From Demequina lutea (GTDB lineage: Bacteria; Actinomycetota; Actinomycetes; Actinomycetales; Demequinaceae), in the NCBI GenBank assembly GCA_003246255.1, contig QKAX01000150.1:1-43017 (forward strand): a DNA stretch of 43,017 bases, given 5' to 3'. Below, in pieces: positions 14,285 to 14,414 of the stretch; positions within the stretch are counted from its first letter, which is position 1, and the number at the start of each line of letters is the position of its first letter. The position numbers were made by a program, and so were the translations under genes. The notes under the pieces were generated by a model, which worked only from the letters and a program-made list of their open reading frames with translations, was not told the DNA's origin and searched no databases.

Positions 14285-14287
14285 GAG

Positions 14288-14414
14288 GGGTCCTTATCGC
14301 TGGGTGTGAAGTCTGTGAGCCGGCACACCAACCACCGCGACGAGGATCCGGCCTGTTCTAGGCCTCGTCGCGGCAGCGAAGGAGCAGCGAGAGTGCACGC
14401 ATACCGCCACCTTA
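14288..14414 (-). promoter_or_regulatory. Putative leuA attenuation leader region
   Basis: TAAGGT -10-like element (14409-14414), leader peptide, hairpin CCGCGACGAGG/CCTCGTCGCGG (14363-14373 / 14335-14345), SD AAGGA (14291-14295) and potential anti-SD GGATCCT (14343-14349). Confidence 0.65.
14358..14402 (-). CDS. Putative leuA leader peptide MRALSLLLRCRDEA
   Basis: ATG CGT GCA CTC TCG CTG CTC CTT CGC TGC CGC GAC GAG GCC TAG; four Leu codons in a five-codon stretch; the end of the ORF overlaps the hairpin's 5' arm. Confidence 0.7.
   Translation of the reverse strand: MRALSLLLRCRDEA

Follow-up and report, generated by a model that had tools for sequence, protein, structure and literature searches.

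The gene for 2-isopropylmalate synthase, leuA, is preceded in a stretch of 43,017 nucleotides from Demequina lutea (in the following, the window) by a short, leucine-rich reading frame and a hairpin, which raises the question of how translation of the one could govern translation of the other. The original prediction held that ribosomes stalled at the Leu codons would free a Shine-Dalgarno (SD) sequence that is otherwise hidden by the 3' arm of the hairpin. We verified on the minus strand the features from which this had been derived (Table 1), namely the leader frame with its peptide and the TAAGGT box 6 nt upstream, the perfect 11-bp hairpin P2, whose 5' arm is made up of the last codons of that frame, and the match of GGATCCT (14349-14343) with AGGACCC (14294-14288) in six of seven bases. 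The leader starts with the ATG at 14402-14400 and ends with the TAG at 14360-14358, and the identity of leuA, starting at 14284, is evidenced by a TIGR00970 match at 858.8 bits. As predicted, the search of the window between leader and leuA found no intrinsic terminator, and the hairpin has no trailing U-run. Set beside a classical trp/leu-type transcription attenuator, the locus thus has the Leu-rich leader peptide and lacks, in the window, the intrinsic terminator. Note that the divergent neighbour of leuA (14690-15805, plus strand) encodes a substrate-binding protein with weak similarity, below the curated cut-off, to 2-aminoethylphosphonate-binding proteins, and that the frames following it on the plus strand, to about 18600, resemble ABC-transporter permeases and an ATPase.

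Table 1. Features of the leuA leader region, in window coordinates.
Feature	Positions	Strand	Remarks
-10 box TAAGGT	14409..14414	minus	6 nt upstream of leader ATG; probable promoter, leaderless transcript
Leader peptide ORF MRALSLLLRCRDEA, including stop codon	14358..14402	minus	Leu run conserved within the genus and across the class
Leu codons CTG CTC CTT	14379..14387	minus	proposed sensing codons
Segment 1, 5' strand of base stem P1 (TCCTTCGCTG)	14374..14383	minus	overlaps Leu codons; swap tests, pair table
Segment 2, 5' arm of hairpin P2 (CCGCGACGAGG)	14363..14373	minus	P2 covariation
5' strand of pseudoknot helix P3, GGCCGG, inside P2 loop	14348..14353	minus	P3 covariation
Segment 3, 3' arm of P2 (CCTCGTCGCGG)	14335..14345	minus	P2 covariation and 3:4 tests; contrary column count
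3' strand of pseudoknot helix P3, CCGGCT	14318..14323	minus	P3 covariation
Segment 4, leuA SD (AAGGA 14295-14291) with flanks	14288..14303	minus	predicted target of both 1:4 and 3:4
leuA, 2-isopropylmalate synthase, 581 aa	12539..14284	minus	TIGR00970 and NF002991

The structure proved richer than the hairpin that had been recognized at the outset. The original prediction had overlooked a pseudoknot, P3, and a base stem, P1, in which the Leu codon run itself is the described anti-SD. P1 (1:4) pairs 14383-14374 with 14302-14298 and 14295-14291 in ten base pairs with a 2-nt bulge, and as its 5' strand abuts the start of P2 the two helices could stack. Segment 3 together with the loop bases 14349-14346 forms an alternative partner of the SD region (3:4). 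Taken over the whole 3' arm of the hairpin, this pairing comprises 13 bp with small interruptions at -16.5 kcal/mol, against -12.8 kcal/mol for 1:4, and because it spans almost the entire arm, the reservation that hairpin and SD pairing have only three nucleotides in common no longer applies. With an SD complementary to both segment 1 and segment 3, the ribosome binding site is predicted to lie in a fold that translation of the leader could change, in agreement with the control by SD hiding that had been proposed. A Leu-run leader frame, a pseudoknot and a base stem between Leu codons and leuA SD are precisely the parts of the LEU element that Seliverstov et al. described in 2005 before leuA in most Actinobacteria (PMC1262725), and the element in the window is a copy of this known kind. 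The sequestration of the SD, presented at first as the notable part of the locus, already belongs to that description.

By the folding energy of its own sequence the leader region does not stand out, with z -1.54 and 19 of 200 shuffles folding equally well, so that the comparison with relatives had to decide. A search of Rfam, including riboswitches, T-boxes and leu_leader, returned no match at the gathering score and none at E values up to 1; as the LEU family matches no Rfam model, genome annotations will miss its copies. Among relatives of the same genus, a Leu-run leader followed by the same hairpin precedes leuA in 24 of 24 loci, the window included, which together with the covariation of the hairpin bears out the conservation that had been named as a check. 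The covariance model R1, for which 73 sequences were used, recovers every one of the 134 leuA loci from outside the genus, about 53 of which were in its training alignment, and finds the element in 213 of 248 genomes of the order. Many genomes of two families of that order (f3 and f4) are without a match to R1. Two further matches, L183 and L162, the latter from another class, were discounted as chance hits, since a Leu-rich leader ORF and a leu gene were lacking in both. At the level of sequence it is this comparative evidence, and not the folding energy, that proves the element to go beyond chance.

The transcript of the leader peptide is probably leaderless. About 152 of 156 leaders have a TANNNT box 6-10 nt upstream of their start, compared to about 0.3 per offset at other positions, with the qualification that the start was chosen partly with the help of the same box. 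The composition of the Leu run is equally distinctive, in that CTT accounts for 44% of its codons in the leaders of the 156 leuA loci versus 9% of the Leu codons in five window genes, and is the last Leu codon of the run in 134 of the 156. Both the rarity of CTT and a requirement for pairing with AAGG could underlie this excess, so that the sensing of a rare codon and the pairing with the SD cannot be told apart here.

Covariation supports the individual helices to different degrees. On alignment A1, 99.1% of the cells of P2 (2:3) are paired and four of its 11 pairs have changed on both sides; for P3 the values are 91.3% and four of six pairs. The register of the MAFFT alignment is poor at the SD, and 1:4 was therefore tested by duplex energies of own versus swapped strands. 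All of these permutation and swap tests ignore the relatedness of the sequences, a limit to be borne in mind for every z value given here. Within the genus, own strands pair at -13.2 kcal/mol and swapped strands at about -10.8 kcal/mol, a difference with z -4.1 that none of 20,000 permutations equalled (tree ignored). Across the class the corresponding z is -4.35, and it reaches -5.0 if swaps of the SD are confined to sequences that share an identical hairpin 3' arm, the tree being ignored in both cases. Within the genus, the residue after the Leu run (Arg, Ser or Gly) varies in step with the bases that precede the SD, and in one subgroup with LLM or LLT leaders the pairing GCTGCTT:AAGCAGC replaces TCCTT:AAGGA. 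On these comparisons, 1:4 appears well supported.

For the contact between hairpin 3' arm and SD, a wider sample was required. A first genus-level test yielded z -0.09; the arm is almost invariant within the genus and this test was powerless, so that class-wide tests were put in its place. With the tree ignored throughout, a register-free swap test across the class gave z -7.0 (n=120), z -6.3 for 63 representatives below 70% identity, z -3.8 for 18 below 60%, and z -5.0 with SDs swapped only among identical Leu strands. Control windows taken from the P2 loop, the P2 5' arm, the coding region and the downstream region were flat against the SD across the class. With the anti-SD consensus used to anchor the SD, z values of -5.4, -5.5 and -2.3 were obtained for the core half of 3:4, and in fixed register 3:4 reached only z -2.8 (tree again ignored); the upstream half of the anchored test was not robust in representatives. 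Typical pairs are GTCTCCTCG with CGAGGAGAC (locus L054) and GCTCCCTCG with TGAGGGAGC (locus L102). A plain column count on A1 showed no 3:4 covariation, in an unrefined alignment whose SD rows are visibly out of register. The idea that 3:4 is merely spurious was dropped after the class-wide tests. The predicted contact between hairpin arm and SD thus stands on the swap and SD-anchored tests, against the verdict of the column count. We regard 3:4 as probable on this basis, and as less firm than 2:3, P3 and 1:4, which like the assignment to the LEU family are supported by sequence comparison.

From the anatomy, the covariation and what is known of ribosome footprints, it seems rather likely that the leuA LEU element works as a ribosome-sensed translational attenuator. 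Its four competing segments would be the Leu codons with the nucleotides that directly follow (1), the hairpin 5' arm (2), the hairpin 3' arm (3) and the leuA SD region (4). Segments 1 and 3 would be alternative anti-SDs, and segments 2 and 4 would compete for segment 3. We infer the leaderless start, the stalling, the reach of the footprints, the response to leucine and the direction of the switch. In the free RNA, 2:3 and P3 would form alongside 1:4 and keep the SD closed. With leucine plentiful, a ribosome at the stop codon would mask segment 2 and leave segment 3 to pair with 4, so that the SD stays closed, and after its release 1:4 and the pseudoknot fold would re-form with the same outcome. 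Under a shortage of charged tRNA-Leu, a ribosome stalled on the Leu codons would mask segment 1 while 2:3 retains segment 3, the SD would be open and leuA translated. The footprint size used in this model is general knowledge. Note that a ribosome on the last Leu codon would mask part of segment 2 as well, and the separation of the two states would hence be cleanest for the earlier Leu codons.

The element is not confined to leuA. R1 also matches upstream of leuC in 14 genomes of a single family (L164-L177, f17), with leuC identified by TIGR00170 in the two that were checked, and, in seven genomes from two different families, f2 and f16, beside leuB-ilvE (L159, L161, L178-L182), both neighbours being confirmed by NCBIfam where checked. 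The copies at leuC have Leu-run leaders such as MRAPRRLLLRCRGGASI, and the same 14 genomes carry one at leuA in addition. In one genome, G442, we found three LEU-type elements. Leaders beside leuB-ilvE mix Val, Ile and Leu codons (MTQRVVILIRRGEFR, MTRQVVLIAGRGEFQ and MARQLVILSSRGEFR are examples), whereas those at leuA and leuC have Leu only; leuB-ilvE has a role in isoleucine and valine synthesis too. These copies keep the hairpin and the pseudoknot but differ in their sequence, and in the small sets at leuC and leuB-ilvE the helices that could be traced are 2:3 and P3; the pseudoknot strands beside leuB-ilvE read GTCAGC/GCTGAC, or AGCCGGC/GCCGGCT in L181.

A conserved 26-residue ORF (MSEEAQKARQALQESMDLREQGHSDD and relatives) lies between element and leuB in L161, L178-L180 and L182, and the small ORF at this place is longer or shorter in L181 and L159. 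A Pfam search with it gave no family above cut-off. An inverted repeat separates it from leuB, at least in L161, and as the small ORF directly follows the element and the repeat precedes leuB, the gene under control may be this ORF. In the literature searched, with most subscription journals outside its scope, we found no mention of copies at leuC or leuB-ilvE, and the sites listed in 2005 were leuA and one transposase gene only (PMC1262725). That the LEU element is both a four-segment translational attenuator, with the sensed codons and the pseudoknotted hairpin 3' arm as its two anti-SDs, and a module that can be re-coded, keeping Leu codons at leuC and having switched to Val/Ile/Leu with a re-sequenced pseudoknot at leuB-ilvE, is a combined proposal that we make tentatively, at slightly less than even confidence.

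A rival scheme would retain 1:4 only, with the Leu codon run as the sole anti-SD that is opened by any ribosome positioned on it, and would attribute the 3:4 signal to the shared purine-rich SD and the relatedness of the genomes. It draws on the fact that 1:4 is the stem of the 2005 description (PMC1262725) and covaries with the SD in the genus despite an invariant segment 3, and it can point to the column count and the low fixed-register value for 3:4. It leaves unaccounted for that the 3:4 signal persists with the Leu strand held constant and in the representatives, while loop, 5' arm, coding and downstream windows stay flat, and we consider it unlikely.

The authors of 2005 left the mode of action of LEU open and favoured a binding protein, as Leu-codon mutants of S. 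coelicolor had not behaved as classical attenuation would predict (PMC1262725). Such mutants would break 1:4 too and are thus ambiguous between the models. A regulatory protein that binds the pseudoknot and gates the SD, with the peptide incidental and orthologues of M. leprae ML1624 as the 2005 candidate, would fit the strong conservation of the pseudoknot and the phylogenetic-profile argument put forward then (PMC1262725). We nevertheless hold it to be quite improbable, as the leader frame is conserved throughout together with its Leu codons and the leaderless -10 box, and as the codons beside leuB-ilvE have become Val/Ile/Leu with hairpin and pseudoknot still in place, a change for which a protein reading the fold would have no need. 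That the leader codons follow the amino acids made by the adjacent operon argues for codon sensing rather than for the binding protein, and the comparison now points to the leader peptide as the sensor. Similarly doubtful is an output by polarity, in which Rho-dependent or other premature termination after the leader, or mRNA decay, is coupled to leader translation. The missing intrinsic terminator would agree with it, as would the designation of C. glutamicum leuL as a transcriptional attenuator in reviews (PMC8709942), but the conserved helices end at the SD, where termination would not need them. Ribosome-sensed translational attenuation is the reading that we prefer, and a supported set of pairings, the re-coded copies and the naming of the competing helices make the question of 2005 testable.

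The element in the window shares with the published LEU element its site before leuA, the Leu-run leader, the pseudoknot, the base stem and the lack of an obvious terminator; the 3:4 pairing supported here is absent from the text of the 2005 paper (PMC1262725). That Leu-rich leaders at leuA are known elsewhere, as the original prediction had stated, is confirmed by S. lividans LeuL1, MRFGLLLLSCRGEGL, which is reported as leaderless and without a typical terminator (PMC8079986), and by C. glutamicum leuL (cg4015; PMC4046766). In the passages cited here, both are presented as attenuators without a worked-out SD switch (PMC8079986, PMC4046766). Ribosome profiling in M. abscessus has revealed a protected uORF upstream of leuA (PMC4974804).

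The window element and the attenuator of the enterobacterial leu operon have a Leu-codon leader in common, while the window shows neither a terminator nor an Rfam match. The enterobacterial system (leu_leader in Rfam) carries Leu codons in its leader peptide and has transcription termination as its output. In the translation attenuation of ermC and cat, a stalled leader ribosome frees a sequestered SD and the signal is a drug. The freeing of the SD would be alike in our model, whereas the signal in the window would be charged tRNA-Leu, and the sensed codons would themselves be an anti-SD.
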